From a virus: a stretch of 24,022 nt of DNA. The stretch is from positions 1 to 24,022 of the IMG/VR virus record IMGVR_UViG_3300050821_018000; one strand, written 5' to 3'. The notes beneath the pieces are model-generated. The model saw only the letters and a program-made list of their open reading frames with translations. It was not told the DNA's origin and did no database searches. A program made the translations under genes and the position numbers. The first letter of the stretch is position 1. Every line of letters starts with the position of its first letter. Of this stretch, positions 3 to 15,868 are shown piece by piece.

Positions 3-224
3 GAACTTCTGGACCTTGGGCCTTGTCTCCGAATCGAATACTTCACCGAGAAGGGCTTTGACCGCTTCCGCCCGACCCTCTACTTCCACGCTTTCGGAGA
101 AGAGAGCGGAGACTTCCCGGGCGACAACGGATTCACACCCACGCTGCTTTTCAATCGCATCCGGCGCAGGCTCTATCTGGTCGGCGGGGTGTACCACGTA
201 GAGCCGGATGGCATCGTGGACTAG
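3..224 (+). CDS. Partial hypothetical protein, C-terminal 73 residues
   Basis: An open frame runs from the window edge to a TAG at 222-224. Its start lies upstream of the window. The translated tail has a normal soluble composition (many Phe, Arg, Asp and Gly) and ends in a short strand-like segment YLVGGVYHVEPDG. I recognise no family. It lies 22 bases ahead of the next likely start on the same strand, so it probably belongs to the same transcript. A competing frame in the same stretch has a low-complexity Ser/Thr/Arg composition typical of a frame shadow, so this reading is preferred. Confidence 0.6.
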   Translation, partial: ELLDLGPCLRIEYFTEKGFDRFRPTLYFHAFGEESGDFPGDNGFTPTLLFNRIRRRLYLVGGVYHVEPDGIVD

Positions 225-246
225 ACGCGGGAGTTATACTGCACTC

Positions 247-1077
247 GTGACCACAACCCACCCACGCCACGCCTCCCCGCTGAAAACCTCGCCGAAGAAA
301 TCCTCGCAGTCTGCTCGCACTCCGCTCTGGTTACGGTCACACATTGAGCCGATCCGCGATTTGTTGCGCGCCAAAGAGTACAACGTCATGGGTCGGTTGA
401 GCTTCGTGAGCATTGTGAAGCCGGACGGCACAGGTAAGTTGATGGACTTTCGGCGCGCGGGCCCGTTCGTGGCCGAAGCCAAGAACGTGAACCAGGTCTT
501 GCTCATCTCGGAATGGGTCGGACTTCCGCCACATCTCGAAGCGAGCGCAACCGCTTGCCCCGACTGTCAGAGCGACTGCCCATTCTGCCACGGCGCCGAA
601 GTTCGACCGTGCACCTTGCGTTACTGTGGCGGAACCGGCAAACGCATCGACCCGGAAAAGTTGATGGACTTCTCCGGAGAGAAACAGTGTCCCGCCTGCC
701 ACGGCACCGGAAAAGTAAAGTGCGATGCTTGCGCGGGAACCGGCTTCTATTCGACAGGACTGAAGGACGGCGCGAAGTACGATCCCGACTCGCGACCGAA
801 GCAACCGGTCTGCGAAACCTGCCAAGGTCGCCGAACTCGTAGCACCGAAACCCCGGTCAACCTACTGGAATTCCAGATCGCCCAGGTTGGCATAACTTCA
901 GTGATCGGCGAAATCGTCCGCTTCACCGTCATCCCCGAGCAAGGCCGCGCCGCCTACCGCTACGATGTCTTGCCGGACGCAATGGGGGATGGAATGTTTA
1001 TCGTGATCGAGCCGGGCTCGCCGCAGATGGCGTATCTCGTGGGCGGAATCGCGGTACGAAAGGACGTGGGCAAGTGA
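247..1077 (+). CDS. Protein with DnaJ-type CxxCxGxG zinc-finger region
   Basis: A 276-residue protein from GTG 247; an in-frame ATG at 208 would overlap the previous gene. Residues about 50-95 form a hydrophobic, strand-rich N-terminal domain. Residues 104-192 hold a Cys-rich region with CPDC and CPFC pairs, then CGGTG, CPACHGTG (148-155), CDACAGTG (159-166) and CETCQG (189-194). These match the CxxCxGxG knuckles of the DnaJ/Hsp40 zinc-finger domain, which bind two zinc ions and contact unfolded polypeptides. There is no J domain (no HPD motif), so this is not a DnaJ co-chaperone itself. Residues 200-276 form a second beta-rich domain. The stop overlaps the next start by four bases (GTGA). 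Role is unknown; a virion-folding or nucleic-acid-binding part is possible. Confidence 0.75.
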   Translation: MTTTHPRHASPLKTSPKKSSQSARTPLWLRSHIEPIRDLLRAKEYNVMGRLSFVSIVKPDGTGKLMDFRRAGPFVAEAKNVNQVLLISEWVGLPPHLEASATACPDCQSDCPFCHGAEVRPCTLRYCGGTGKRIDPEKLMDFSGEKQCPACHGTGKVKCDACAGTGFYSTGLKDGAKYDPDSRPKQPVCETCQGRRTRSTETPVNLLEFQIAQVGITSVIGEIVRFTVIPEQGRAAYRYDVLPDAMGDGMFIVIEPGSPQMAYLVGGIAVRKDVGK

Positions 1078-1777: not shown

Positions 1778-2482
1778 ATGGCAACCACGGTGCGGAGATT
1801 ACGACTGGTGGGCAACCCGAGAAAGAATCGGCAACATGCACGCAAGCGCAACAACGTGCTCTATGTACTCACGAATCCCAAGAGGAAAGCCATGGCTAAG
1901 CATCGCAAGTCGAGCAAGCGTCCGCGTCATCATTTTGGCCTGACCAAGAAATCTCGCAGCCGCAACCCCTTTCGGCGTCGGCGGCATTCCCGGAATCCGC
2001 TGTTCGGCGGCGTGAGCTTGCAGAACATCGTCGAACTGGGCGTAGGCGCGGCTGGCGGCGTGATCGGCGCTGGCTACCTGACACAGATGGTGCTGGGCGC
2101 AAACAACGTGGGCATGGCTGGCTACGCGGGCGATGCGATTGCAACCCTCGCTCTGGCTTGGGCCGCACAGAAATTCCTCGGACGGCAAGAGTTGGCCAAG
2201 GGCGTTCTCGCTGGCGGATTCGGCGCCATCATCAAGCGGTTCTGGGATGACAACGTGAGCGGCGCTTCGCAGTCCATGAGCGGACTGGGCAATCGCAGCT
2301 TCGCCGGGCTGGGCTACTACACCAACCGGAATTTCCCGCTGCCCACTTCGACCTACTCGCCCGGCATGTCGGTGCCGAGTCTGCCGGTAACCGCGGGAGC
2401 GGCTCCGCAGGTCGTGATTCCATCGCAGCCGGTCAGTCCGGCCGCGGGCAGTTCGAAACGATTTACCCATCGCTTCAATTAA
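1778..2482 (+). CDS. Arg/Asn-Pro-rich protein with Gly-rich membrane-like segment
   Basis: Read from ATG 1778 this is 234 residues. The first 75 are extremely basic and carry repeated Asn-Pro motifs (GNPRKN, TNPKRK, RNPFRRRR, RNPLFGG), a composition seen in proteins that bind packaged DNA. Residues about 78-145 are Gly/Ala-rich and hydrophobic with two or three membrane-like stretches (VELGVGAAGGVIGAGYLTQM; IATLALAWAAQKFLG). The C-terminal 80 residues are Ser/Pro-rich and look disordered. ATG 1892 has a better Shine-Dalgarno (AGAGGAAA) and would give 196 residues, but the basic Asn-Pro pattern already runs in frame upstream of it, so the longer form is annotated with the start uncertain. Its place directly before the capsid-like gene suggests a virion protein linking membrane and DNA. 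That role is inferred. Confidence 0.6.
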   Translation: MATTVRRLRLVGNPRKNRQHARKRNNVLYVLTNPKRKAMAKHRKSSKRPRHHFGLTKKSRSRNPFRRRRHSRNPLFGGVSLQNIVELGVGAAGGVIGAGYLTQMVLGANNVGMAGYAGDAIATLALAWAAQKFLGRQELAKGVLAGGFGAIIKRFWDDNVSGASQSMSGLGNRSFAGLGYYTNRNFPLPTSTYSPGMSVPSLPVTAGAAPQVVIPSQPVSPAAGSSKRFTHRFN

Positions 2483-2553
2483 GAAGCGGCGTGGGGTCTG
2501 TGAATTTGTTGTGAATTTTGTGCAAGCCGGTAAGCGACCGGAAAAGGTGAACC

Positions 2554-3357
2554 ATGAAGATTTTGACAGCAGTGATGTTGATTTCCCATTTTCCAGTATG
2601 GCTGGCGATGCTAGGGCTGGCTGGTATGGCGGTCGCAGGCAATGCAGGAGAGCGGCAACGCTTCTCGAAGCCGCACTCGCGAGAATTTAGCCGGCTGATG
2701 CGGCAACACTCGTTGGTGCACAACCTTTATGATCGAGCGCTGAAGCTCGCGCCGCATCGGCAGAATCCGAACCTCGGCGGAACCATCGATGTCATCACGA
2801 CCGAACTGTACGATCAGTTGACGGTCAACGTGGCCACGGCGTTCCCCTCCCCCTCGATTCTGTTTCAGACGCCGAAAGGGCAAGGCGGGAAGACGCTGGC
2901 GAACACGAACATGACCGCCGCGGGCATCCTGCCCAACCCGGACCGCTTCACCATCTGGGCCATCGCCGCGCACATTTCGAACAACTCCGTCCCGTCCGAC
3001 TTTCAGAATCTTCTGTCGAACGTGACCCTGGAGTTGTACATCAACAACAAGTGGTGGAGCCAGGGTCCGCTCGTCGCGTATCCCGCAGGCCGCGGCTACA
3101 AGGTCGACTCGGTTGCGAACGTCGGCACCGTGCCGGCTGGTTCCGCTCCCGTGTTCTCCGTCACCAACGGGGTCCAAGATCCGCGCGCCGTGTCCTTGCT
3201 GGACGCCTCCATCACCATCGAGCAGGGTGAGCAGTTCTCGGTGGTGTTGACGGCGCAAACCGGCTTCAACACATCGGCCAACAATACCAACCCAGCTGGC
3301 AACGGTGTGACGCTGACCATCTACCTTATCGGCAATCGCGAGCGCGGCACTTCATAA
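2554..3357 (+). CDS. Putative major capsid protein, double jelly-roll-like
   Basis: 267 residues, start ATG 2554 behind GGAAAAGGTG. The N terminus is hydrophobic (about residues 4-29) and is followed by a basic helix; an internal ATG at 2626 would remove most of the hydrophobic part. From residue 70 on the protein is strand-rich. The order of elements, namely ILFQTPKG, TNMTAAGILPNPDRFTIWAI, LELYINNKWWSQGPL, YPAGRGY, NGVQDPRA, ITIEQGEQFSVVL and TLTIYLIGNRER, matches by eye the pattern I associate with small double jelly-roll major capsid proteins of tailless, membrane-containing bacterial viruses (about 265-330 residues; PM2 P2 is of similar size). A stable hairpin directly follows, as often seen after highly expressed capsid genes. 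Other options are a virion spike or minor coat protein. No structure prediction was run. Confidence 0.5.
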   Translation: MKILTAVMLISHFPVWLAMLGLAGMAVAGNAGERQRFSKPHSREFSRLMRQHSLVHNLYDRALKLAPHRQNPNLGGTIDVITTELYDQLTVNVATAFPSPSILFQTPKGQGGKTLANTNMTAAGILPNPDRFTIWAIAAHISNNSVPSDFQNLLSNVTLELYINNKWWSQGPLVAYPAGRGYKVDSVANVGTVPAGSAPVFSVTNGVQDPRAVSLLDASITIEQGEQFSVVLTAQTGFNTSANNTNPAGNGVTLTIYLIGNRERGTS

Positions 3358-3381
3358 TCCGCGACCGCTGCAAGGTTTCAG

Positions 3382-3409
3382 CCTCTCCGGGCCGCAATGC
3401 CCGGAGAGG
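3382..3409 (+). terminator. Strong 11-bp hairpin after putative capsid gene
   Basis: CCTCTCCGGGC (3382-3392) pairs perfectly with GCCCGGAGAGG (3399-3409) around the loop CGCAAT. It is followed by ATTTACCAAAA rather than a long T run. It lies 24 bases after the stop of the capsid-like gene and 25 bases before the next start. It could be a partial terminator that lowers downstream expression, or a 3' stabilising structure for the capsid message. Confidence 0.6.
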
Positions 3410-3434
3410 ATTTACCAAAAACGGAGCGCTCACA

Positions 3435-3860
3435 ATGTTTCCAGTCACAGACATTCGCCTATCGGTCATCTCGGGAGACGAGAAGCACGTCGCCGTGCAC
3501 GTGAGCGAGGCGCAGGCAGTCAAGAGCAAAGTCCGCGTCGGTCTCTTTGCAGATATCGTGACTTTCGCAGAATCGATCCTCGCGTTGCACGAAGACACAG
3601 ACAAGGTCGAAATTGGCTGGGATGAAAAAGCGCAAACCGTCACCATCTCGCCCGACGATACCGCTTATGAAGTTTCGCAGGCTTTGAGCGCGAGTTCTGC
3701 CGCTCCTGATGCAAAACTGGTCGATGAAGTGAAGGCACAGTACAAGACCATCGCCGATCTTCAGGCGCAGGTTGCGGTCGCGAAAACAGCCTCTGACGCA
3801 AAAGACAAGACCATCGCCGATCTTCAGGCGCAGGTTGACAAACTAACACCGAAGCCGTAA
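3435..3860 (+). CDS. Small protein with C-terminal coiled coil
   Basis: 141 residues from ATG 3435 with CGGAG eight bases upstream. Residues 1-85 are an alpha/beta globular part with no family I recognise. Residues about 92-138 are strongly helical with heptad-like spacing, and KTIADLQAQV occurs twice, 21 residues apart, giving three coiled-coil turns per repeat. This suggests oligomerisation, for example a trimeric or dimeric virion accessory or scaffold. No catalytic motif is seen. It is the first gene after the hairpin, followed after seven bases by the zinc-module protein. Confidence 0.65.
   Translation: MFPVTDIRLSVISGDEKHVAVHVSEAQAVKSKVRVGLFADIVTFAESILALHEDTDKVEIGWDEKAQTVTISPDDTAYEVSQALSASSAAPDAKLVDEVKAQYKTIADLQAQVAVAKTASDAKDKTIADLQAQVDKLTPKP
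3742..3837 (+). repeat. Two identical 33-base direct repeats within a coiled-coil gene
   Basis: The same 33 bases occur at 3742-3774 and 3805-3837 without mismatch, a 63-base (21-codon) period. They encode the duplicated helical segment KTIADLQAQV. Perfect identity including silent positions indicates a recent tandem duplication or ongoing slippage or recombination, so coiled-coil length may vary between strains. Confidence 0.9.
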
Positions 3861-3867
3861 CGAGCCG

Positions 3868-4374
3868 ATGGCGCAGAGCACATCCCAATCCTGTCAAGCA
3901 TGCAAGGGCGGAGGCAAACTCCCGACGCCCAGCGGCTCGCAATGGCAGGCATGCCCTATCTGTGGCGGCTCTGGGGAAAAGTACGATCCAGGCCTTCAGT
4001 ACGCTTATCGCATGGTGCCGATCACGATCGCGGGAAACGGCAACAGCGTGCAAATTATTAGCGTCCTGAACGCGGATTTCCGCTGGCAGGAATTCACTGG
4101 GGAGTCAACCGGACCATTCACGTTCCTGATTAGCGACCAGTCGGCAGGCGGACGCCAGTTCTCGAACGTAGCCATCCATTCGGCGGAGATGCTGGGCACG
4201 GGGCAGAATCCCTTCCCGCTGTTGACGCCCTACACCTTCCAAAAGAAGGGCCAAATTCAGATTCAGTTGACCGATGTGAGCGGATCGAGCAACACCGTCG
4301 CCCTGTGCTTCATTGGCACCAACATCAACGAAAACGTGGGCGTGCAGCCCGTGGCCGGGGGTTCCTCGAAATGA
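3868..4374 (+). CDS. CxxCxGxG zinc module fused to a capsid-accessory-like beta domain
   Basis: 168 residues from ATG 3868. The N terminus has a two-knuckle zinc module: C9-x2-C12 (CQACKGGG) and C29-x2-C32 (CPICGGSG). Residues about 50-168 form a strand-rich domain with elements GPFTFLISD, GRQFSNVAIHSAEMLGTGQ, PLLTPYTFQKKGQIQIQLTD and TVALCFIGT. The same order (SN, ALG/MLG then T/S-GQ, L-T-x-P, aromatic-x-F, hydrophobic strand, final F-x-G) is visible in the 182-residue product of 5173..5721, so the two are probably related jelly-roll-type virion proteins. Its stop overlaps the next start (ATGA). A vertex, spike or accessory capsid role is inferred from context only. Confidence 0.6.
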   Translation: MAQSTSQSCQACKGGGKLPTPSGSQWQACPICGGSGEKYDPGLQYAYRMVPITIAGNGNSVQIISVLNADFRWQEFTGESTGPFTFLISDQSAGGRQFSNVAIHSAEMLGTGQNPFPLLTPYTFQKKGQIQIQLTDVSGSSNTVALCFIGTNINENVGVQPVAGGSSK

Positions 4375-4634
4375 AAGAGTACAAGACCATCGGGCCAACC
4401 CAGAATGTTAGCGACACCGATTCCAGGTGTCCGGCCTGTCCAGGCGACGGGAAGAGAATGCAGCCCGGCTCCTCTCCGGAAACTTGCAGCGTGTGCAAGG
4501 GCACGGGAAAAATCTCAGGGCTGGTCAAGCAACTGAACGAAGCCGCGGCGGAAGGCTGGACGGTCGCAACTCACACGATGGTGGGCCATCCTCCCATCAA
4601 CCATCTCGTGATCATGGAGCGTGACAAACCGTGA
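4371..4634 (+). CDS. CxxCxGxG zinc module plus DUF4177-like tail
   Basis: 87 residues from ATG 4371, in an ATGA overlap with the upstream stop. Residues 20-46 contain CPACPGDG and CSVCKGTG, a minimal DnaJ-like zinc module. The tail (KQLNEAAAEGWTVATHTMV, then a final strand) resembles the DUF4177 pattern of a helix followed by GWxV and a beta strand; this is only a resemblance by eye. It is the third CxxCxGxG protein in the cluster. Its stop overlaps the next gene (GTGA). Function unknown. Confidence 0.65.
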   Translation: MKEYKTIGPTQNVSDTDSRCPACPGDGKRMQPGSSPETCSVCKGTGKISGLVKQLNEAAAEGWTVATHTMVGHPPINHLVIMERDKP

Positions 4635-4813
4635 ACACAATCAAGAACTTTCTCGTGCACTGGAAAACCAGCCTCTGCGGCATCGTCGCGGGGGCGATTA
4701 CCGCCTTCGGCTCTGGGCAAAGCGTGCCCCACATCGTAACGGGAGCGGCGATTGCAGTTCTCGGCCTGGTCGCATCGGACGGTGACAAATCCTTGACAGG
4801 GGCGGCAAAGTGA
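4631..4813 (+). CDS. Small membrane protein, holin-like
   Basis: 60 residues from GTG 4631 (GTGA overlap, GGAG 11 bases upstream). A basic N terminus (KNFLVHWKTS) is followed by two hydrophobic segments, about residues 14-28 and 34-48, separated by a short turn, and a polar tail. Small two-helix membrane proteins with this layout are common in phage lysis modules as holins, antiholins or related proteins. Here it sits amid structural genes rather than beside a muramidase, so a virion membrane protein is equally possible. It overlaps the next gene by four bases. Confidence 0.55.
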   Translation: MNTIKNFLVHWKTSLCGIVAGAITAFGSGQSVPHIVTGAAIAVLGLVASDGDKSLTGAAK

Positions 4814-5169
4814 ACTTTCTCAAGAAAATCGGCGCGGTCGTTTTGAAAATCGTAGGCATCGAGACCGGACTGATGCCGCTCATCTCGCAGGCAATTCCCG
4901 CGAAAGATGCAGCGGTAGTGAGCACGGTCACGGACAAGCTCGACCAAGGCCTCGGCGTGATCGCGACGGCAGAGCAGATGTTCACCGCGGCTGGTCTGGA
5001 GAAATCGGGCGGCCAAAAGCTATCGGCGGCAACTCCATTTATCGCCGGACTGATTCAGCAGACCGATACGCTGGCGGGCAAGAAGCCAAAAGACGAAGCA
5101 GCATTCCAGAAAGGTTGCACCGATCTGACATCCGCCCTGGCGGACATCATGAATTCTTTTGGTGAATAG
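4810..5169 (+). CDS. Small helical phage protein, unknown function
   Basis: 119 residues from GTG 4810, coupled to the holin-like gene by a GTGA overlap, with AGGGG upstream. It is almost entirely alpha-helical: an amphipathic N-terminal helix (FLKKIGAVVLKIVGIETG), then helices around 35-60 and 80-115. It has one Cys and no catalytic motif. Helical proteins of this size often follow small membrane proteins in phage operons. I know no assigned function and infer only that it acts with its coupled partner, possibly at the membrane. Confidence 0.6.
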   Translation: MNFLKKIGAVVLKIVGIETGLMPLISQAIPAKDAAVVSTVTDKLDQGLGVIATAEQMFTAAGLEKSGGQKLSAATPFIAGLIQQTDTLAGKKPKDEAAFQKGCTDLTSALADIMNSFGE

Positions 5170-5172
5170 CTT

Positions 5173-5721
5173 GTGCATGACTCCTTCAGAGTTGGTGAAG
5201 CATCCGGCGAAGCGGCACTGACAGTCTACGGGCTGAGCCCGTACCTATTCTCCCAGCGCCGCGTGCGCAACTGGAAATACCTCCCCCTGAATCGCGACCT
5301 CCCCCAAGGCCAGATGGAGTTTACCGTGCTCAAGTTCATGTGGGGGTTCAATTCGAGCATTCCCGGCCTGGCTTCCTGGGAGACGCAGAACATCGTCATT
5401 CAGCTGCGCAAGCCCACGTGGGTGTGGGCCATGAACGGGGTATCGAATGACAACACGGGCCCAGGCAGCACCAATCTTGGTTTCCAGTTTCAGGTCTACC
5501 ACACCCACAACGGCGTGCAATCCCGCTGGTCCAACCGGCCGCTTCTAAACACTGAAGCGCTGGGATCCGGTCAACTGCCAAAAACCCTGACACAGCCCCA
5601 TCTGTTTCTCGCCGGCGACTCCGTAGAAGTAGAAGTCAAGAATCTCGGTAAGCCGGTAGCCCCAGCCGTGACATCCATTTCGGTCGCCTTCTTCTGTGGG
5701 GAGTACGAGGGGGCGCTGTGA
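5173..5721 (+). CDS. Capsid-accessory-like beta protein, 182 aa
   Basis: The start is GTG 5173 (GGTG nine bases upstream); no in-frame ATG exists before residue 48. The product is strand-rich and aromatic (WKYLPL, FMWGF, WVWAM). It ends with RWSNRPLLNTEALGSGQLP, PHLFLAGDSVEVEVKNLG and ISVAFFCGEYEG. This C-terminal half parallels the beta domain of the 168-residue protein at 3868..4374, which suggests paralogous jelly-roll-type virion proteins. There is no signal peptide or membrane segment. A vertex, collar or minor capsid role is inferred. The next gene begins at its stop codon. Confidence 0.6.
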   Translation: MHDSFRVGEASGEAALTVYGLSPYLFSQRRVRNWKYLPLNRDLPQGQMEFTVLKFMWGFNSSIPGLASWETQNIVIQLRKPTWVWAMNGVSNDNTGPGSTNLGFQFQVYHTHNGVQSRWSNRPLLNTEALGSGQLPKTLTQPHLFLAGDSVEVEVKNLGKPVAPAVTSISVAFFCGEYEGAL

Positions 5722-6275
5722 TGCAGCGGGCAGCGGATTACAACTCGGCTCCCTGGACGCAGGCACAGAAAGTCATCGCCTCGCTGAAAACCCAGAGCAT
5801 CGTCGCCACTCCGTCCTACCTGAACGAAAAATTGACGCTGTGGTTTCCGCCCGCGGATTCGTCTCCCTTCACGACGACCAGTCCGGACGGCACAGGGACC
5901 AGCGGAGGCTTTCTCGCGTATCCCGCACCCGGCGCCGGGCAAGTGGTCATTCTGGGCAAAACGATCGATCAGGGCAAGCTGTGCGTGATCCGCAAAATGT
6001 CGATCTTTAATCAGGGCGCCAACCCTCCGGATGGCTCGGGAAACGTGATCTGGCGAGTGCTCGTCAACGGCGCGGCCGTGAAGGGCATGAACGCCATGCT
6101 CTCCCAGTTCGGCGCTGGCCTCACTCCGCAAGACTGCCAAATCATCGCGACCGATGGTGACGTCATCCAGGTCACCGTGGAAGTGCCAGCCGGGAAGATC
6201 ACGCCTCCAGGAACAACCGGGGCACGCTGGGATGGCTACACGTGCCCACTCACGGAGGCAACGCTCACCAAATGA
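5721..6275 (+). CDS. Putative virion structural protein, 184 aa
   Basis: ATG 5721 begins on the last base of the preceding stop, with GAGGGG eight bases upstream; GTG 5718 would add one codon. The product has a short helical start (PWTQAQKVIASLKTQ). It then becomes strand-rich with FLAYPAPGAGQVVILGKTI, IRKMSIFNQG, WRVLVNGAAVKGM and a C-terminal IQVTVEVPAGKITPP segment followed by RWDGYTCP. This reads as a beta-sandwich protein, probably another capsid or spike component. I recognise no named family. Its stop overlaps the next gene (ATGA), where the signal-peptide-bearing proteins begin. Confidence 0.6.
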   Translation: MQRAADYNSAPWTQAQKVIASLKTQSIVATPSYLNEKLTLWFPPADSSPFTTTSPDGTGTSGGFLAYPAPGAGQVVILGKTIDQGKLCVIRKMSIFNQGANPPDGSGNVIWRVLVNGAAVKGMNAMLSQFGAGLTPQDCQIIATDGDVIQVTVEVPAGKITPPGTTGARWDGYTCPLTEATLTK

Positions 6276-7051
6276 AAAAGTTGTATACAGCAGTTTTAGT
6301 TGTGTTGCTCTCGATTGCCGCGCAAGGCCAGCGACAGTCGACCGTTACGGCTCCACTTCTTTTGAATTCAAGCGTGACCGGTCGCGTAGTGCCAGCTGCG
6401 AATGATCTGATCGGAGCCGGGTCGAGTTACTGGACCTTCTGCACAAGCGCAACGTCCCTCTCGGTGATCGCGGAGGAGAGCCCGGACAATATTGCGGGGC
6501 ACAACGTTCCCATCTCGGTGACCTATGGAGTTCCGGCGCAGGTCAATGGCAACGCTTGCGCAGTAATCCCCGCAGGAGGATTGTTCGGCTATCCCGCTTT
6601 TAATGTGCTGGCCATCGCAGGCGGAACCATCACGGTCTGGTATTCAGGATCCACGGGGGTTGTCTCGACCATTCCCCCTGCCGCAAATAGCACCGGGGCA
6701 ACGACGCCAACGCAGTGCGATACGACGATCGCGACCAACGCCCCGCCAAGCGCAACGACTGAATTGCTGGTCGGCACTGCCGTGCAGAGCGTGTACGTGT
6801 GCGCTGGGCAATACAGCTTCAACGGTGCTCCGAGCGCTGGCCTGATTTCGCTGGTCTACGGAACGGGCCCCACATGCGCCGGCAGTCAGGTGTTGCTCTG
6901 GGTCAATTACACCACGGCTTCTACGCCGCAGACTCTCCCCCTCTTTAACGGAAGCACCGTGTTTCGCGTGCCTCCGAGTTTCAATGTTTGTCTCGTGGTC
7001 TCCACCGTCACGGTCAACACGCAAGTGAATCTCTCGTACGCGCGGTACTGA
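6272..7051 (+). CDS. Secreted beta-rich protein with Sec signal peptide
   Basis: 259 residues from ATG 6272, overlapping the upstream stop (ATGA). A classic Sec signal is present: MKK, then a hydrophobic core (LYTAVLVVLLSIAA) and a likely cleavage site near AQG/Q at residue 19. The mature chain is rich in Ser, Thr, Gly, Ala and Val and has scattered Cys residues. Its C-terminal part (VYVCAGQYSF, LVYGTGPTCAG, FNVCLVVST, NLSYARY) resembles repeated beta modules of phage fibre-like proteins. It is the first of four signal-peptide proteins in this operon. A cell-surface or virion-attachment role is inferred; enzymatic motifs are absent. Confidence 0.65.
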   Translation: MKKLYTAVLVVLLSIAAQGQRQSTVTAPLLLNSSVTGRVVPAANDLIGAGSSYWTFCTSATSLSVIAEESPDNIAGHNVPISVTYGVPAQVNGNACAVIPAGGLFGYPAFNVLAIAGGTITVWYSGSTGVVSTIPPAANSTGATTPTQCDTTIATNAPPSATTELLVGTAVQSVYVCAGQYSFNGAPSAGLISLVYGTGPTCAGSQVLLWVNYTTASTPQTLPLFNGSTVFRVPPSFNVCLVVSTVTVNTQVNLSYARY

Positions 7052-7055
7052 AAAC

Positions 7056-7448
7056 ATGCTGCCCATCGAAGCCTTAGCCGACGCCATCATGCAGTTCGAA
7101 GGCTGGCACCGCGATTCGCACTCGTGGCGCAACCGGAACCCCGGGAACTTGCGTCCTACCTCGCCCACGCAACCGCAGGACGCGGAGAACTACCGCATCT
7201 TTGATTCTCTTGCGGAAGGCTTCGCCGCGCTGCTCGCAGATCTCCGCGCCAAGTTCGGCGGCTCCCACAACCTGAAACCAGAATCGACCTTGCTGGACCT
7301 GTTCAATTGCTACGCGCCGGCAGGAGACGCGAACAATCCGAGCGCCTACACCCAATTTGTGTGCTCGTGGACTTCGCGCATTCTCGGTCGCCCCGTGTTG
7401 CCAGCAACCACGCTCCGTGACTTCTGGGGCAGCCCGGGGGCCGCATGA
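7056..7448 (+). CDS. NPGN-type muramidase/lytic transglycosylase-like protein
   Basis: 130 residues from ATG 7056, four bases after the previous stop. The lysozyme-like signature is AIMQFEGW (likely catalytic Glu at residue 15), then RNRNPGNLRP, then a helical segment (LAEGFAALLADLRAKF) and a TLLDLFNCYAP motif followed by AYTQFVCSW. This order, FEG..., NPGN(I/L)R, helix, then YAP, is shared by phage peptidoglycan-degrading proteins variously named structural or lytic transglycosylase proteins. There is no signal peptide, so it is either a virion-borne entry enzyme or relies on a holin. The product of 14637..15158 is a paralogue. The stop overlaps the next gene (ATGA). Confidence 0.7.
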   Translation: MLPIEALADAIMQFEGWHRDSHSWRNRNPGNLRPTSPTQPQDAENYRIFDSLAEGFAALLADLRAKFGGSHNLKPESTLLDLFNCYAPAGDANNPSAYTQFVCSWTSRILGRPVLPATTLRDFWGSPGAA

Positions 7449-8701
7449 AACAACTTCTTTGCAGTCTTGTTCTTTTCTCTTGTGCGTGTGCTTTCGCGCA
7501 GAACCCGCCCGTGATCGCGCAGCCCGTGAACGCATCGAGCGTGACATTCCCGCCGATCGTGCCAGCACTCTTGCCGATTGCGAATGCTGGCGTGAGCCGC
7601 ATCGGGAATCCCGGACCAGCCCGCTACTGCTATTGGATTGTGGTCAACTATCTCGTCGGCAACACAGCGCCCACGAAAGTTCGGCCTTGCATCACGAATG
7701 GACCCGTCACCCTTTCAGTTTCAAATTACGATCAGGTGAGTTTTGATCTTCCGCCCCAGGCCGCCAGTGTCGACATCTTGCGCACGACCGGACTCGGAAT
7801 CGATCAAGCGCCCCAAGGAAGTTGCGCGTGCGCCGTGGCCAGCGGCAACACGACCGGTACCGTCACCGACCAATCGAACTCGCTCAGCGCCTACACCGTG
7901 ACCACCTTCGATCCATCGGTGCTGAACATCGGATTGACCAACGAAGTTGTAGGCGCGGGCGCAAGTCACCTGAAACTCAGACAGAACGGCGTGCTGGTCG
8001 GAGATATTTCAGCGCTGGCCAATGGCCTTGCGGACCCAGGCGCGAACGGCTTTGTATTCCGCACAGCACCGAACACAACCAGTGCGATTGGCTCCAGCGG
8101 TACCGGAAACGTGATTCTCGCGGGCGCGCCGACCTTTACCGCGAATCCAACCTTTGCCGCACAGACCGGAGCGGGATTTGTGGTTTTGGCGGCAAGTCCT
8201 CTACTTACCGGCAACCTCACGTTGAATGGTTCAAATTTTGGCGTCATCGCTACGCGGGCAACCCTCGATGTCACGACCAGCGGCGGCGCAAATTCGACGG
8301 TGACCAGCACTCCGCTGCTGGCCAGCACAACCTATGCCTATCAGTGTTCGCTGATTGTCTCCCCGTCCGCAACTACGAACTCCCTCGACATCATTCTATT
8401 TCCCGGCATCGGCGCCACATACGCGACCGCCACGGCAACTCTACAGACCGGCGCAGGAACAACATCCGCGGCCCTCCAAATGGGAATCGCACAAGGTGCA
8501 CCAGGCGTTCCCGGATTGCTCGCCGTGGCAGTAGGCTCTGGCACGTTCACGACCGCAGGCGGCTTCTATGGTCTGACGATCAGCGGAGAACTTGAAATGA
8601 ACACGGCCGGCAACGCCTTGTTGCAGATCGTCTCGCCAGGGGGCGGAACGAACACGGCCAAACGCGGAGCAAGTTGCACGTTCACGGAGACGGCTAATTG
8701 A
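7445..8701 (+). CDS. Secreted fibre-like protein, 418 aa, Sec signal peptide
   Basis: ATG 7445 lies in an ATGA overlap. The signal peptide is MKQLLCSLVLFSCACAFAQ with likely cleavage AFA/Q. Residues about 50-190 form a module (YCYWIVVNYLVGNTAP, VDILRTT, DQSNSLSAYTVTTF, GAGASHLKLRQNG) that reappears in the N-terminal part of the 1260-residue protein encoded downstream, so the two share a beta-sandwich, fibronectin-III-like domain. The C-terminal 150 residues are again beta-rich (TYAYQCSLIVSPSATTN, FYGLTISGELEM) and could be a carbohydrate- or receptor-binding domain. Composition is rich in Gly, Ser, Thr, Ala and Asn, as in fibres. Surface adhesion or virion attachment is inferred. Confidence 0.65.
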   Translation: MKQLLCSLVLFSCACAFAQNPPVIAQPVNASSVTFPPIVPALLPIANAGVSRIGNPGPARYCYWIVVNYLVGNTAPTKVRPCITNGPVTLSVSNYDQVSFDLPPQAASVDILRTTGLGIDQAPQGSCACAVASGNTTGTVTDQSNSLSAYTVTTFDPSVLNIGLTNEVVGAGASHLKLRQNGVLVGDISALANGLADPGANGFVFRTAPNTTSAIGSSGTGNVILAGAPTFTANPTFAAQTGAGFVVLAASPLLTGNLTLNGSNFGVIATRATLDVTTSGGANSTVTSTPLLASTTYAYQCSLIVSPSATTNSLDIILFPGIGATYATATATLQTGAGTTSAALQMGIAQGAPGVPGLLAVAVGSGTFTTAGGFYGLTISGELEMNTAGNALLQIVSPGGGTNTAKRGASCTFTETAN

Positions 8702-11700
8702 AAAAGAGATTCAATTCGAACCTAGCCGCGGTCCTGCTCTTGCTGGTATGTTGCGCAGCTGGCCAGCAACCCGTCACCACGCCCCAGGTCACACTTCCCA
8801 TGAGTGTGGGGATTCCTTTTCCGCCCACGCCGGGCGGGCCACCCTCCGTGATCGGCGCAGGCGGATCGGCCACCTATTACTATTGGCTGGTTTCGGAGTA
8901 CTCGGTTGGCAACTCAGCCCCGAGCGGACCATTCGCCGTCTTTGACGCGCCCAACACGCTCAGCGGCGGCAATTATGTTTTCGTTTCATGGAATCCAGTT
9001 CCAGGTGCGACCTCCTACGATGTCCTCCGAACCACAAGCGTCACGACGCCGGGCGGAGCTTGCAACTGTGCGGTCATCGTGGGAACCTCGTCGACCACAG
9101 TCAACGATCAATCGAACGCGCTGAATTCTTACACTGTCGCGACCTTCCAGGCGCAAAGCTTTCAACTGAGCCTTGCCAACGAAGCAACCGGCGCAGGCGC
9201 AACTCATCTGATCTTGCGACGGCAGCCAGGCGGCGCGCAGATTGCAGATTTAAGCGTGAGCACATCGGGCCTGCCCAGCACGGGCGGAGCCGGAATTGTC
9301 TTTCAGACTGGACCCTCAGCAACCCGTCCAGCCACAGGCGCGGATGTCGTGAGCCTGTGGGCGGGAGGATCCTGTTCGGGTTTCCTGAAAAATGACTTGA
9401 CGTGCGGCTCAGCTGGAGGCGCGACCAACCAAGTCAACGGAGTGAACAACACTTCGCAGGCGACGTTGAATCTGCAAAACCCAGCCACGTTCAACGGGCT
9501 CACATTCACCTTTACCAATCCAGGGGCGGGAAATGTTCTGCCCGTCTTCGGCGGCACGCTGGGCCCCGGAGGCATCGGAACTCTAGTCGCCGGTCAAAAC
9601 GGCCTCGCAGCTTCCGCCACAACCGACACAACCAACGCCGCCAACATCGCCAGCGGAACTCTCGCCGGCGCGAGGATGTCTCCGGTCAATCTGGCTTCAT
9701 CGGCGAACGGCGGCGTCACGGGGAACCTGCCAGTCGGAAATCTGAACAGCGGCACCGGAGCAAACAACACAACATTCTGGCGCGGAGATGGAACGTGGGT
9801 AGCTCCCACTGGATCGGGAACGGTTGGCAGCGGCACGGTTGGCTATTCAACAGTCTACTCGGCAAGCAGCGCCACAGTCGGCGCGTCACCGATCGACATC
9901 GACGCTTCGCAGTTCTCCGGGTCAGACAATTGCGTCAAGGGCGCGGCCGCCATTGCCAACAGCAAAACTACGGTAAACGCTGGCAAGGTGGTTCTCGATT
10001 TCGCCGGCCAGTACAACTGCGTCAACTCTCCCTTTACGGCCAACACGCCAGGCGGCGACGTTGCTCTCGTCTCGGGCACGGGAACGGTCGACATTCGCAC
10101 CTCGAACACGTGGCTGATTCCGTCCGGCACACATCTTCACGGAATGGCGCCCGCGGGCGTCACGACTTCGAGCACCGGAACATCAGACGACAAGGCCAAC
10201 AAGCTCTACGTGGGAACCATCATTCGAGCCTGCAATCCCAACATCTTTAATTGCGGCACAGCCTTTCATGTGCCCCAGGATACAGTCAGCGGCGGCATCG
10301 CGGTTTCGGGGAATGTGGCGACGGTGACGGTCGCAAACACCGTGAGCGTCGGCCAGCCGGTTGTGCTCTTCGGTGGACCTGGTGTTTTTGCCGGAATGAC
10401 GGGCATTGTTCTGGCCTCGCCCGCGCCGACTGGATCGGCGTTCTCGATTTCGGTTGCCTCTACCACTTCGCCATGTTCCGGCGCCTGCACCGCAGCGGTA
10501 GTCTACGAAGGCACGGCGCTCGGCCAAATCGGCCCCGGCAACATGACGGACTACCGCACCGAAGTGGATCACATCACCTTCGATTGTGCGTTCGTGATCG
10601 GCTGCATTCCGCTGGTGAACTCCGCGGGCGAAGAGAATACCACTTGGCACGATGTCAACGTGGCCAACAGCGGAATCACGGGCTTCTTTATTTCTACGGT
10701 GTCAACCTCCTTCGGACCGAACGGCGGCGGCGGAGCGAACAACTCTGGTCCGTACTGGGCAATGAGCGTCAACTTCCTGAGTGAGACCTGCGAACTCACA
10801 TCCGGCACCAACAATTGTTTTAGCTCCCTCCATGGTGGCGCAGGCACCGGATACCCTGTAATCGAAACCACCTCGTTCCAGAACTCGCAGAACCAGAATC
10901 CTTTGACTTGCGACACAACGGCGGCAATGCTGCTTGGCCGCGGCTCCTTGCTGGACCTGATCAAAGGCTTCAACGGGATCACCGTCACAGCCAACAGCGC
11001 GGCGGGTGGAGGCGTGATTCCGGTAGCGATGAACGCAGCGAGTTGCGGAGCGGCTTATTCTGGGCGCTCCAACTACGGTCTGTTTGTCACGGTGCCGGTA
11101 ACCATCATCGGGGTTCACTCAGAATATTGGCGCACGGCTGCGGGACTCGGCGGCAACACAACCCTAAACCCAGACCTGGTCGGCACGAACACGCAGAACG
11201 TGCTAATCGCAGGGCTGGAAGAATGCTGCGGGGACGGTGCCGGATACGTGGTCGATATCGGCGCAACCAACAGCGTGAGCAACATTGTGCTCCTGTCCCT
11301 GGAATCGCCGGGCACGAACATCGTTAAAGACAACGTGGCAGGAAACACATGCAACGGCGGAGACAACGGCACGGCGATCTACATTCTCGGGAACAATGCG
11401 AACCAAGTGCAGACCACGTGCACGGGCGTCAAGAACCAGATGGGCACGCTGGCCAGCACGGGCTCTGGCTTGTTCAATGGCGGGCTTTGTGTTGGCTCTG
11501 GCTGTACGGGTTCGGCACCAGGCACCGGCGTTCTGAATGTAACGACTGGATTTGAGATCGGAACCGCGGCCGCCCTCAATCACTGCTTGCTCGGCAATGG
11601 CACCAACTACGTGGACAGTTCGCTCTGCCTGACCAGCGCGCCGGCGCTGAACGGATTGGCGAATCCGAACGGCAACGCCAATTACACAATGGGCGTGAAC

Positions 11701-12480
11701 ACGTTCACCCTGAGCGGATTCAATCCGTCCGGGGGCACGTCGAACCTCTTCAACCTTACCGATCTTTCGACCGACACCAGCACGGGCTACTTGGCCAACT
11801 TTAACGTCACCAGCGGATCGACGCTGAACGCCTTCGCTGCTGGCGTCAACGGAAACGGCTGGCAAGTCACCAACGCAAACCAGCTGAAGCCTCTAGGGAC
11901 CGGGGCGATTTTCAATTACTCGCCTGGTGCCCCATTCTCTGCAGCTACCGTGAGCAGCGACCCTGTTTGCTATACCACCAATCAACCCGCAGGTTTGACC
12001 TGCACGGGGGTTGCGGGCACAGCGACTCTCTTTGCCAACTCCATCACCATTCCCACGGCGGCTACGGCCGGTACGGTAGATGGAACCCACAAAGCGCTTG
12101 TCATTCAACAAGACTTCTATTACAGCTTTGGCACCAATGCCATCGGGCAAACCGCGAAGCTTCTGGCGTGTAGTTCGATCACGTCGGGCACTTGCAATGG
12201 AGCGGTCACTCTTTACACGATGAGCGGCAACTCTCTTGCCCAGTCTCAGGACTATCAGGTGTTCGATTGCTGGCTTTTCGGCACGGCGACCGCGACCACG
12301 TTCAACGTCTCTTGCGGCTTCGACAATACCCTCCGAGAGCCAAACGGCACACCAGCGCAGGTAGCTTCAATTCCGAATAACTCAACGAATTGGTCTCTCG
12401 TATGGCAGTGGCAGTTCACCGGAGTTGCCACCAATGACGCCGTCTCGCAGATGTTTCTGTTTTCGGAGTTCAAATATTAA
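8698..12480 (+). CDS. Giant secreted fibre/beta-helix protein, 1260 aa
   Basis: Starts at TTG 8698 in a TTGA overlap, with GGAG eight bases upstream. A Sec signal (MKKRFNSNLAAVLLLLVCCAAG/QQ) is followed by the module shared with the 418-residue neighbour (residues about 45-200: YYYWLVSEYSVGNSAP, YDVLRTT, DQSNALNSYTVATF). A Gly/Ala/Asn-rich linker then leads to GDGTWVAP (about residue 363), typical of phage fibres. Residues about 400-930 resemble a right-handed beta-helix (pectate-lyase-like; e.g. TQNVLIAGLEE, VSNIVLLSLESPG). The last 170 residues form a beta-sandwich. No catalytic site can be assigned. Likely a host-surface-binding or polysaccharide-degrading protein; export by Sec is unusual for a phage fibre. 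Confidence 0.65.
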   Translation: MKKRFNSNLAAVLLLLVCCAAGQQPVTTPQVTLPMSVGIPFPPTPGGPPSVIGAGGSATYYYWLVSEYSVGNSAPSGPFAVFDAPNTLSGGNYVFVSWNPVPGATSYDVLRTTSVTTPGGACNCAVIVGTSSTTVNDQSNALNSYTVATFQAQSFQLSLANEATGAGATHLILRRQPGGAQIADLSVSTSGLPSTGGAGIVFQTGPSATRPATGADVVSLWAGGSCSGFLKNDLTCGSAGGATNQVNGVNNTSQATLNLQNPATFNGLTFTFTNPGAGNVLPVFGGTLGPGGIGTLVAGQNGLAASATTDTTNAANIASGTLAGARMSPVNLASSANGGVTGNLPVGNLNSGTGANNTTFWRGDGTWVAPTGSGTVGSGTVGYSTVYSASSATVGASPIDIDASQFSGSDNCVKGAAAIANSKTTVNAGKVVLDFAGQYNCVNSPFTANTPGGDVALVSGTGTVDIRTSNTWLIPSGTHLHGMAPAGVTTSSTGTSDDKANKLYVGTIIRACNPNIFNCGTAFHVPQDTVSGGIAVSGNVATVTVANTVSVGQPVVLFGGPGVFAGMTGIVLASPAPTGSAFSISVASTTSPCSGACTAAVVYEGTALGQIGPGNMTDYRTEVDHITFDCAFVIGCIPLVNSAGEENTTWHDVNVANSGITGFFISTVSTSFGPNGGGGANNSGPYWAMSVNFLSETCELTSGTNNCFSSLHGGAGTGYPVIETTSFQNSQNQNPLTCDTTAAMLLGRGSLLDLIKGFNGITVTANSAAGGGVIPVAMNAASCGAAYSGRSNYGLFVTVPVTIIGVHSEYWRTAAGLGGNTTLNPDLVGTNTQNVLIAGLEECCGDGAGYVVDIGATNSVSNIVLLSLESPGTNIVKDNVAGNTCNGGDNGTAIYILGNNANQVQTTCTGVKNQMGTLASTGSGLFNGGLCVGSGCTGSAPGTGVLNVTTGFEIGTAAALNHCLLGNGTNYVDSSLCLTSAPALNGLANPNGNANYTMGVNTFTLSGFNPSGGTSNLFNLTDLSTDTSTGYLANFNVTSGSTLNAFAAGVNGNGWQVTNANQLKPLGTGAIFNYSPGAPFSAATVSSDPVCYTTNQPAGLTCTGVAGTATLFANSITIPTAATAGTVDGTHKALVIQQDFYYSFGTNAIGQTAKLLACSSITSGTCNGAVTLYTMSGNSLAQSQDYQVFDCWLFGTATATTFNVSCGFDNTLREPNGTPAQVASIPNNSTNWSLVWQWQFTGVATNDAVSQMFLFSEFKY

Positions 12481-14626
12481 GCACATCGTACTAGTTCTTC
12501 TTATTCTCTGCGGTTCGGCCTGCGCTCAATACGCCTACAGCGCGAACGGCAAGTTCGCGCCTGGGGAATGGCCGATTGACCCGATTGATGACGTTTCAAA
12601 TCCAGCGAACGTCTACGCGGGCGCGGAAATTTCCACGCGAATGCAAGGCGCAACCTCGATTCCCGGCAACGTCACGTTGAACGATGGACACTATGGCTTG
12701 TACGGCGGGCTGGTCCTCGACGGATCGCCTACGACCAACATCCCTCCGGCGGATCTGCTGGCCTCGCTCAACACGGCCGCAAACGCGATTCAGTGTCTCA
12801 ATACATCGGGCGTGCCGGCGACGTGCGGCGCAGCTTCGATCATCGGCGTTGTTAGCTTTGGCTACTCCATCACGCAGCACTATTTCTGCAAGCTGGGAGC
12901 AAACGCTTCGACCAACTGGACCGTGCCCTCGGGATGCGATGCAAATTCCGTCATCCATCAAATGAATGCAAAGTCGCTGGCATCTGGAGTCACGTTTCTG
13001 GACTGTTCCGAATTTGGCGTGCTTACCCACGATAGTAATCAGGCCATTCATGGTTCCTTTGATTCATTTTCCGGGCCGTCTGGGGGGATCGGCACCGGGG
13101 GAACGATCAACGTAGATAACCCTTACGAGAACTGCTTTACGCAGGAGTTGAACGGGCTCGGCTACACCAACGCCCAAGTACAGGCGGTCATTCTCGATCA
13201 GGAGTATGCGGGAGTCTTGACGGTGCAAGGCGGACTGAGCACGTGCACCATAAAAACGCAGGGATGCTCGTTCCTGCTCACGGATAAAACCTCGCTCGCT
13301 TGGCAGCAGGTTGCGGACGACGCCGACGTGATGCGGGCGCTGTCGGCCTATTACCCGAATTTGAAAATGATCTTGTGGCTCGATCACACCAATGGGGAGT
13401 GGGGCACCCCGACCGATCCGAGAACAGGCGGACCTCAGCTTTCCCCTGAGCCCTACATGCAGCAGATTCCTTACGCGCACCGTCACGTGATCCAAACGCA
13501 GTACGTGCAGAAACGCACCCAGACCACGATTTCGACGACAAGCTTTTCGAGCACAACCGAGACGGTGAACTTTATCGGGAGCAAACCCGCGCTGCTGGTG
13601 AATGGCGCTTTCGTCCAGGTCAGCGCCAACTCCGATCCTGGCTCGAACACACCCTGCACCAGCTGGGGAACGGCGACCTCTACCGATGCGACGCACCTGA
13701 CCTGGACGGCGAATACCATTGGCCACAGTTTGGCGTCACCCATTGATTTCGATACGCGCTGGCCTTCGGGAACAGTGATTCACGTGTATGCTCTGGCCGC
13801 TTCGGTCTCCGGTTACGACAACACAATTTCGTCGGTGACCGACAGTACGCACTTGGTCTTGGGCGCGGCACTCTCGGCGGGAACGACCGGTTCCGGGATG
13901 CCGTTTCTGGTGAGCACCTGTCCTGGGCTTGCGGTGTCGAACGTCACCGGGACTTCGTTTCAAATCACGCAGGCAAACTCCGCTGGCGGCTCAGGTGGAA
14001 TCTTCAGTGTGATCCAAGACAACCGCGTCGGCGGATTGGATACCAACACGGCCGGGGTGAGCGCATGGCTGGCCAACGTCGAACGCTCGCCGAATCCCGC
14101 GAACGGCGGGGACATGGCTTCGATGTTCCAGGGGAACACGGGCGGCAATCCCGGCAATCATCCCACAACGAATCAGGCGACGCCTAGTGGCGCGAAGGAC
14201 GTTTCCGTTGGGAATACGCTGGCCCAAACCATCTACACCAACCCAGCCCAGTTTCAGGCGACGCACGCTTACACCGCAGGCGGATGCAACTTTGCGGGCG
14301 CTGGATCCTGCATTCTGGACGGAACGGTGACGACGGCCGCGATTCATCTTCAACAAGTCACGGTCAGCGGCACGAGCGGCGGATCGGCTCCGACCTGGAA
14401 TCATTCAGGGGGCACGACAACGAGCGGCGGAGTGACCTTTCAGGATTTGGGGTTGTGGCCGCTTTCGGATTCACCAGGCGCATGCGGCGGCGGGTCGGGG
14501 CAGGAATGGTTCGCGGATCAGGTGGTCCAGAATCTCAGCAACACTGCGATCGCTTGCGTGAGCCAATACTTTCAAAGCTTGCTCTGGATCACTAAGTGGG
14601 CGTGCTCCAACGGGGTTTCCTGTTAG
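12434..14626 (+). CDS. Secreted protein with SGNH-hydrolase-like features, about 716-730 aa
   Basis: The start is unsettled. ATG 12434 has GGAG nine bases upstream and gives 730 residues with a 17-residue polar N-region. AUU 12476 has GGAG seven bases upstream, overlaps the previous stop (ATTAA) and would place KHIVLVLLILCGSACAQ directly at the N terminus. Either way a Sec signal with cleavage ACA/Q is present. The first 350 residues contain VVSFGYSITQHYF, a LGYTNAQVQAVILDQEY segment, YYPNLKMILWLD and SPEPYMQQIPYAHRHVI. Together these recall secreted SGNH/GDSL-like proteins, although the classical GDS box is not obvious. A beta-rich insertion follows, with a closing segment GQEWFADQVVQNL. Hydrolysis of surface glycans or esters is a weak inference. 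Confidence 0.55.
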   Translation: MTPSRRCFCFRSSNIKHIVLVLLILCGSACAQYAYSANGKFAPGEWPIDPIDDVSNPANVYAGAEISTRMQGATSIPGNVTLNDGHYGLYGGLVLDGSPTTNIPPADLLASLNTAANAIQCLNTSGVPATCGAASIIGVVSFGYSITQHYFCKLGANASTNWTVPSGCDANSVIHQMNAKSLASGVTFLDCSEFGVLTHDSNQAIHGSFDSFSGPSGGIGTGGTINVDNPYENCFTQELNGLGYTNAQVQAVILDQEYAGVLTVQGGLSTCTIKTQGCSFLLTDKTSLAWQQVADDADVMRALSAYYPNLKMILWLDHTNGEWGTPTDPRTGGPQLSPEPYMQQIPYAHRHVIQTQYVQKRTQTTISTTSFSSTTETVNFIGSKPALLVNGAFVQVSANSDPGSNTPCTSWGTATSTDATHLTWTANTIGHSLASPIDFDTRWPSGTVIHVYALAASVSGYDNTISSVTDSTHLVLGAALSAGTTGSGMPFLVSTCPGLAVSNVTGTSFQITQANSAGGSGGIFSVIQDNRVGGLDTNTAGVSAWLANVERSPNPANGGDMASMFQGNTGGNPGNHPTTNQATPSGAKDVSVGNTLAQTIYTNPAQFQATHAYTAGGCNFAGAGSCILDGTVTTAAIHLQQVTVSGTSGGSAPTWNHSGGTTTSGGVTFQDLGLWPLSDSPGACGGGSGQEWFADQVVQNLSNTAIACVSQYFQSLLWITKWACSNGVSC

Positions 14627-14636
14627 GTAAAAACCC

Positions 14637-15158
14637 ATGGCCAGCGACTTCATCACATCCTGGGCCAGCGCGATTGCAAGCTTCGAAGGCTTCAACACGC
14701 CGGGCAGTGTGGCCGCGCGGAACAACAATCCCGGCAATCTAAAATTCGCTGGCCAGTCGGGCGCGGTCGGACCGGACCCAAACGGCTTCGCCATCTTCCC
14801 GGATCCATCCACCGGCTGGTCCGCCCTCTACAACCAACTCCAGAAATACGTGCAGGACTTCCCGGGGTACTCGATTCTGCAAATGATGGGGAAGTACCTT
14901 GGTCAGCCAACACCAACCGTCGATTCTCAGGGCAACGCCTACAACTACGCGACCTTTGTGTCGAACCAGCTGGGCGTCGACAGTGGCACAACCTTGGCCG
15001 AACTCGCAAGCAATAGCGCTCTCCCCGCGGATGGTTCAGCGCTCCCGGATTCCGGCTCGCCGATTGATCAGTCCCAAGCGATCGACCTTAGTCCTCTTCT
15101 GTGGGTGGGTGGAGCGCTGCTGGGCGGGGCGATTCTGGTCTGGGTACTCGAGGACTAA
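14637..15158 (+). CDS. Membrane-anchored NPGN-type muramidase/transglycosylase-like protein
   Basis: 173 residues from ATG 14637, with AGG nine bases upstream. ASAIASFEGF (likely catalytic Glu at residue 18) and ARNNNPGNLKF match the same motif pair as the 130-residue enzyme at 7056..7448, followed by a helical WSALYNQLQKYV segment and a YNYATFVSNQLG segment. A Ser/Pro/Asp-rich linker (residues about 120-147) leads to a C-terminal transmembrane helix (LLWVGGALLGGAILVWVLE). A peptidoglycan hydrolase with a C-terminal anchor is reminiscent of membrane-associated transglycosylases such as PRD1 P7, which would suit a virion with an internal membrane. It is the last plus-strand gene and converges on the recombinase gene 68 bases away, with no clear terminator between them. 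Confidence 0.7.
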   Translation: MASDFITSWASAIASFEGFNTPGSVAARNNNPGNLKFAGQSGAVGPDPNGFAIFPDPSTGWSALYNQLQKYVQDFPGYSILQMMGKYLGQPTPTVDSQGNAYNYATFVSNQLGVDSGTTLAELASNSALPADGSALPDSGSPIDQSQAIDLSPLLWVGGALLGGAILVWVLED

Positions 15159-15226: not shown

Positions 15227-15868
15227 TTACACAACCAAAGAATTCAGCCCTTTTGCGCCCCGCAGGAAGGCGCGGCGGGCGGTATCCTTGCTCACGCCCA
15301 AAGCCTGCGAAATCTCCGCCCAGGAGCAACGCTGGTCGCGCAGCTTGCGGATTGTGGCGACGTCGGCCACAACTCGAGGCCTGCCCAAAGATGTTCGGCG
15401 GTGACCTTTGTTGGAGACGAACCAACCGGTTTCGCGAAGCGTCGACTGCCGATTGGCCATCCCCGACTTGACCCGCTCCCGGATCACTTCGCGTTCGAAC
15501 TCGGCAAAGGCGCCGATGATCTGAAACATCAAGCGGCCGGCAGCTGTCGTGGTGTCGACCTGATCACGGACGCTGACAAATTCCACGCCCAAGGCCTGGA
15601 ACTCCTCAAGGGCTAGGATCAAGTGCCGCAAGGAACGGGCGAACCGGTCAAATTTGTAGACCATAACCACATCGAATTTGCCGCGGCGCACTTCGGCCAT
15701 CATGCGATCGAGCGCCGGACGTTTTTCTTTGGAGCCGGACACGCCGTGATCCAAGAAAGGAGTGGGCTTCCAGGTCCGCTGCTCGCAACTGTCGAGCATC
15801 TCCCGGACTTGCATCCCTTCGTTCTGCTCACCCGTGGAGACTCGGCCGTACAGGGCGGCTCGCTTCAT
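15227..15868 (-). CDS. Serine recombinase (resolvase/invertase family), copy 1
   Basis: 213 residues from ATG 15868. The N-terminal catalytic domain has YGRVSTGEQ (nucleophile Ser11 with Arg9), GVSGSKEKRP, KFDRFARSLRHL (catalytic arginines near 75-78) and the helix E arm LMFQIIGAFAEFERE. A C-terminal helix-turn-helix (SWAEISQALGVSKDTARRAF) binds DNA. The size fits small resolvases and invertases rather than large serine integrases. The start overlaps the end of the cytosine methyltransferase gene by 41 bases, unlike the 4-base overlaps elsewhere. It is a close paralogue of the recombinase at 17871..18446. Site-specific inversion, resolution or transposition within this genome is likely. Confidence 0.88.
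   Translation of the reverse strand: MKRAALYGRVSTGEQNEGMQVREMLDSCEQRTWKPTPFLDHGVSGSKEKRPALDRMMAEVRRGKFDVVMVYKFDRFARSLRHLILALEEFQALGVEFVSVRDQVDTTTAAGRLMFQIIGAFAEFEREVIRERVKSGMANRQSTLRETGWFVSNKGHRRTSLGRPRVVADVATIRKLRDQRCSWAEISQALGVSKDTARRAFLRGAKGLNSLVV

Follow-up and report, generated by a model that had tools for sequence, protein, structure and literature searches.

The tailless salt-lake phage SSIP-1 has two major capsid proteins (MCPs), an internal membrane and a T=49 particle for which single barrels are suspected (PMC6260650, PMC6356626, PMC4958249), and a packaging-ATPase role has been suggested for its gp40 (PMC4124505). In the 2026 taxonomy it is listed as an 'unclassified dsDNA phage'. 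Most double-jelly-roll (DJR) viruses (Bamfordvirae) carry an FtsK/HerA ATPase, but FLiP and the Odin groups do not (PMC5894146), and the archaeal SPV1, like FLiP and the Odin-group viruses, is without a packaging ATPase (PMC8812541, PMC5894146). Here we describe a stretch of viral DNA, the window, which is an entire record of 24,022 bases and which most likely comes from SSIP-1-like viruses of a new and distant branch, with single-jelly-roll (SJR) capsid proteins.

The window and its relatives

The window is a fragment whose left end falls within an upstream gene. Its left 15 kb, which include a capsid-type cluster, read rightward and its right 9 kb leftward. A scan of IMG/VR with the product of 2554-3357, the capsid candidate, returned a single relative, G001 (53,692 bases), and a query with the marker protein ending at position 221 led to another, G002 (56,366 bases); both look complete, since each has a 127-bp direct terminal repeat. 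Among 398 Pseudomonadota genomes, a profile search gave one good match, G634 (E 1.4e-5), on a contig in which a 12,532-base unit is present one and a half times. The unit encodes the marker (a similar protein in the same place, weakly matched at E 0.04), a basic protein, a 201-residue capsid candidate, a beta protein, a muramidase, a transglutaminase-like protein, a coiled-coil protein, a Rep of the G2P type and a tyrosine integrase. No match came from about 1,500 other genomes, Spirochaetota and two further classes among them, so the group is rare in sequenced hosts. A scan of genome contigs with the capsid protein as query was likewise negative, and the same contigs queried with the helicase-methyltransferase gave 80 loci, none with capsid relatives. 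Weak matches in a Bacteroidota sample (L102-L104) were discarded as single, short and within long ORFs, as were the only three matches of a degenerate DNA motif scan of IMG/VR, all due to chance.

The features of the window on which the comparison draws, with the evidence for each, are:

3-221, forward: C-terminus of a protein from a conserved NP-rich family (the marker, directly upstream of the module); 35% identity, E 1.4e-7, to the C-terminus of a 460-aa G001 protein
1778-2482, forward: Arg/Lys/Asn-Pro-rich protein with Gly/Ala-rich hydrophobic stretches; G002 counterpart, E 9e-10; the true start may be the ATG near 1892
2554-3357, forward: putative single-jelly-roll MCP, conserved core about 2755-3354; three alignments, the G634 match and a model
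3868-4374, forward: second beta-sandwich (SJR-like) protein, extended at the N-terminus by a zinc-finger-like CxxCxGxG segment; E 1.6e-5 to G001, 1.5e-6 to G002, 1e-3 to a 152-aa G634 protein
4631-4813, forward: small protein with one predicted transmembrane segment; hydropathy scan
4810-5169, forward: small protein with one predicted transmembrane segment; hydropathy scan
5173-5721, forward: third SJR-like protein; SJR-family profile E 0.0036, local match to G001 13878-14546 at E 0.011
5718-6275, forward: possible fourth beta-rich virion protein; position and a GSG(N/D)VIWR motif as in G001 12882-13685, weak (E 0.87)
14637-15158, forward: muramidase domain with a C-terminal transmembrane anchor (virion lysin type); 33% identity to a 175-aa G001 protein, E 7e-13; PHROG endolysin, E 1.6e-13; transmembrane segment at residues 153-171
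18443-19429, reverse: DUF5131 (phage Gp37/Gp68-type) protein, accessory; Pfam E 2.4e-68; also in G001 and G002
19426-22203, reverse: SNF2-like helicase fused to an N6/N4 methyltransferase, accessory; Pfam; 52% identity to G001, 53% to G002

The 267-codon ORF at 2554-3357, with the sequence motifs quoted in the initial annotation, has a clear coding bias and a ribosome-binding-like AAAAGGTG 5' of its ATG, and it is beyond chance because it is conserved in three other genomes with syntenic neighbours. It matches its counterparts in G001 at E 4e-4, in G002 at a profile E of 7e-17 and in G634 at a blastp E of 2.6e-10 over 202 residues; the G001 and G002 proteins match each other at E 1e-26. Aligned around K..(N/D)TNM...G.L..P, the candidates are 24-33% identical. 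Neither the window protein nor its three counterparts have a credible sequence match among annotated phages and plasmids, and profile searches of the PDB found none.

Window and G001 share the order marker C-terminus, capsid candidate, beta-rich protein, another such protein (G001 13878-14546, in turn matched by G002 at E 9e-7) and transmembrane-tailed muramidase, and also have the helicase-methyltransferase and DUF5131 genes in common. G002 repeats this order with stronger scores to G001, of which it is a syntenic sister. The window, G001, G002 and G634 each have a module in which the capsid candidate is joined by a basic Asn-Pro-rich protein, small beta proteins and a membrane-anchored muramidase. 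The surroundings described earlier for the capsid candidate hold up as well: the Arg/Asn-Pro-rich protein with Gly-rich segments that precedes it is conserved in part (the G001 and G002 counterparts match each other), and the small beta-rich proteins and membrane peptides that follow it are present and partly conserved. No protein of 1778-6275 has a convincing Pfam or PHROG match, zinc-finger-like CxxCxGxG motifs excepted; DnaJ-type motifs of this kind occur in three products of the window (208-1077, 3868-4374 and 4305-4634). The product of 1778-2482, which has no family match in Pfam or PHROG and no transmembrane segment by a simple hydropathy scan, has the place and a composition similar to those of the structural SSIP-1 gp44 and of a 177-aa G634 protein, and is a probable internal genome/membrane protein.

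Between the cluster and the muramidase gene, 6242-14626 (forward) encodes four large beta-rich products with starts near 6272, 7445, 8698 and 12425. Each has an N-terminal Sec-type signal peptide, odd for virion spikes of cytoplasmic origin, and the same is seen in G001 (L004 10788-11834 and 8762-10366). The adjacent spike-like proteins of 7445-8701 and 8698-12480 are paralogous at their N-termini, with 42% identity across 190 residues. The accessory genes reported at first do form a large set: the right 9 kb hold two genes for serine recombinases, one for a cytosine methylase, a radical-SAM-like gene, the DUF5131 gene and the helicase-methyltransferase, the last of which is frequent in bacteria of many phyla as well. 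The recombinases (15227-15868 and 17871-18623, reverse) are 67% identical to each other and flank the methylase and radical-SAM-like gene, a stretch that is possibly a switchable or mobile cargo cassette.

The relatives have peculiarities of their own. A 387-aa gene is 98% identical between G001 (L004:5442-6602) and G002 (C1 51463-52644), most other genes being 30-80% identical, and may reflect recent exchange between them or their relatives. Upstream of the G001 capsid genes lies a gene for an ice-binding-like domain protein (L005:2833-3813; PF11999, E 4e-62), with a 61% identical counterpart in G002 (L096:10302-11351). The integrase-bearing 12,532-base G634 replicon (L107, G634:C85) has a Rep about 30-38% identical to those of NO16-type Vibrio corticovirus-like phages; an NO16-like Rep beside a different capsid module would point to module exchange between tailless virus groups.

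Fold of the capsid candidate

According to the initial annotation, the 267-residue protein was the DJR capsid protein of a virus of the PM2, FLiP or PRD1 kind. Small DJR proteins are of this size (in NO16-type phages, 265-277 aa), and the relationship of the G634 Rep to that of the same corticovirus-like phages points in this direction also. However, the conserved core is only about 165-200 residues, the alignment leaves out the N-terminal 70 residues of the window protein, and the G634 candidate is 201 residues in all and thus too short for two barrels. Length is a stronger argument for a single barrel than the model is. A two-sequence model of the candidate was poor (pLDDT 40), and a three-sequence model of the 200-residue core (ma22e8c9c1b87; pLDDT 54.8, pTM 0.54) has, at low confidence, nine strands and two short helices in one jelly roll. 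VIA-align places VP3 of enteroviruses and rhinoviruses first, along with other single-jelly-roll proteins of viruses (Z up to 7.5, spanning about 140 residues). A single jelly roll is supported by this but not proven, since Z below 8 lies in the range reachable by chance arrangement and the PDB holds a disproportionate number of picornavirus chains. Foldseek gave no PDB match below 0.02 with the model, and its first matches include tail proteins. The FLiP and P23-77 capsid proteins are not among the structural matches listed, an absence that excludes nothing, and they have no sequence match either. DJR capsid proteins of the P2 type from three NO16-type phages scored at background only against the capsid and SJR profiles.

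The product of 2554-3357 therefore looks, as far as alignment lengths and a model can tell, like a single rather than a double jelly roll, and we regard the DJR reading as unlikely. Two SJR units each are seen in a 294-aa G001 protein and a 298-aa G002 protein, and the predicted capsid set consists of the MCP candidate and one to three SJR-like proteins.

Relationship to SSIP-1

Against phages, the G001 transglutaminase-like protein had a single weak match, gp34 of SSIP-1, which is annotated as a structural (virion) protein of that phage. The transglutaminase-like proteins match gp34 at E 1.7e-16 for G634, 4.9e-7 for G001 and 1.2e-5 for G002, and the Cys, His and Asp/Glu positions are kept in all four proteins. 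A gene of this type was not seen in the window, presumably because the window is cut; it would lie past the left end. After gp34, SSIP-1 has transmembrane proteins, the NP-containing structural gp44, the beta proteins gp45-gp47 and the transmembrane-tailed muramidase gp54, which is the order found in the relatives.

Profiles of the four capsid candidates and of five SJR-like proteins were compared with the full set of 57 SSIP-1 proteins. The capsid profile matched gp46 best (E 0.026, aligning D..EP..DT..F..N...NPLP) and the SJR profile gp47 (E 0.018), neither match being significant alone; the runners-up had E above 1 for both profiles. Both proteins are annotated as structural and sit where gene order predicts. 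A profile-profile comparison (hhalign) with gp46 and gp47 gave no match. Position and score, in equal part, make homology of gp46 and gp47 with the two profiles suggestive. The BFVD match I1ZBH9 (211 aa, TM about 0.4), which has the length of gp46, was not counted as evidence.

The likeness to SSIP-1 extends over gp33-gp34 (a coiled coil and the transglutaminase-like virion protein with its transmembrane tail), gp44, gp45-gp47 and gp54, in the same order in G001, G002 and G634, and to genome size (44 kb in SSIP-1, 54-56 kb in G001 and G002). The differences lie in capsid proteins past confident sequence similarity, in the lack from the relatives of the RecA-like ATPase gp40 and the 2319-residue gp43, and in the replication genes, with a DnaB helicase in G001 and G002.

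Packaging and tailed-phage genes

In line with the earlier statement, family searches of the 24,022-base window found no terminase, portal, tape-measure or sheath gene; where 'tape measure' families were matched, it was through the muramidase domain alone (7056-7448 and 14637-15158). That the beta-rich proteins might instead be head decoration, fibres or spikes of a tailed phage whose head genes lie outside the window is suggested by the spike-like genes at 7445-14626, by the DUF5131 and helicase-methyltransferase genes, all common in tailed phages, and by the tail proteins among the Foldseek matches. We consider this very improbable. None of the 55 proteins of the complete G001 is a terminase large subunit, portal or HK97 capsid protein or belongs to a major tail family (complete Pfam list; PHROG, best 25 of 66 families), and the protein behind a lone 'terminase small subunit' match is an HNH endonuclease; neither G001 nor G002 showed a P-loop ORF of the TerL kind (family scans covered G001, and G002 was covered by synteny and motif); and the 12.5-kb replicon that also has the module is not large enough for a tailed phage.

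The A32-like packaging ATPase that the initial annotation had thought worth seeking did not turn up. By motif search, the Walker-A ORFs of note in both complete relatives are those for DnaB and the helicase-methyltransferase, the G634 element has no Walker-A packaging ATPase, and no FtsK/HerA ATPase was found in G001, G002 or the G634 element, which further weakens the case for a DJR virus. The relatives appear, at the level of sequence motifs, to have no recognisable packaging motor, and may have a deviant one. The same absence from all three, together with the Sec-type signal peptides on the products of 6242, 7445, 8698 and 12425, could mean that no particle is made and that the element is plasmid-like or encodes secreted adhesins, its beta-rich proteins acting at the host surface. 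This, too, we hold to be quite unlikely: the transglutaminase-like protein is homologous to gp34, which is annotated as structural in SSIP-1, the module follows the order of the SSIP-1 structural block, and a membrane-anchored muramidase is typical of virions.

Discussion

The tailless reading first put forward for this DNA stands, since the gene at 2554-3357 is real and lies within a capsid-type cluster; synteny with two complete genomes in which no tailed-phage head genes were seen, the transglutaminase-like virion protein in common with SSIP-1 and the gene order support it, and the virus would probably contain a membrane. We infer the particle, its membrane, the role of the basic protein and motor-free assembly for the window. 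To the whole explanation, an SSIP-1-like tailless virus with 2554-3357 encoding a single-jelly-roll MCP and the mechanism that follows, we assign a probability of about three in four.

In this mechanism the MCP would be joined, in mixed capsomers or at vertices, by further single-barrel proteins (3868-4374, 5173-5721 and perhaps 5718-6275), as in two-MCP viruses. The basic Asn-Pro-rich protein would link the genome to an internal membrane populated by the small transmembrane proteins, and the anchored muramidase would breach the cell wall on entry. In the complete relatives, the membrane-anchored transglutaminase-like cysteine peptidase of the gp34 family may process the assembling particle. 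The shell would assemble around a condensed genome rather than be filled by a motor.

Several described groups share parts of this picture. As in the Helvetiavirae (Thermus phage P23-77, sphaerolipoviruses), there are putative single-barrel capsid proteins, one of them doubled (the 294-aa protein of G001 and the 298-aa protein of G002), and a presumed internal membrane; unlike in the Helvetiavirae, no packaging ATPase was found here, and there is no detectable sequence similarity to VP16/VP17. SPV1 (Portogloboviridae) and FLiP (Finnlakeviridae) are also icosahedral, with a membrane and no packaging ATPase (PMC8812541, PMC5894146), but SPV1 is archaeal and FLiP is a 9-kb ssDNA DJR virus to which there is no sequence similarity; the genomes of FLiP and the Odin group are much smaller than those of G001 and G002. 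The corticovirus-like Vibrio phage NO16 (MH730557) resembles G634 in its Rep, about 30% identical, but has a DJR capsid protein and an FtsK-like ATPase.

The capsid family defined here is missing from Pfam and PHROGs, and the window and its relatives supply kin for SSIP-1, which has stood alone since 2012. We would propose only tentatively that SSIP-1 belongs with the window, G001, G002 and G634 in a lineage of high rank, so far unrecognised, whose members are tailless dsDNA viruses of bacteria with SJR capsids and genomes of 12.5 to 56 kb. Most of its members would enclose, in the absence of a virus-encoded motor, genomes far larger than those of other ATPase-less icosahedral DNA viruses, with basic Asn-Pro-rich membrane proteins condensing the DNA during shell assembly. 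These viruses bear on whether single- and double-jelly-roll dsDNA viruses had separate origins, and on whether a shell can enclose about 55 kb of dsDNA in the absence of a packaging ATPase.
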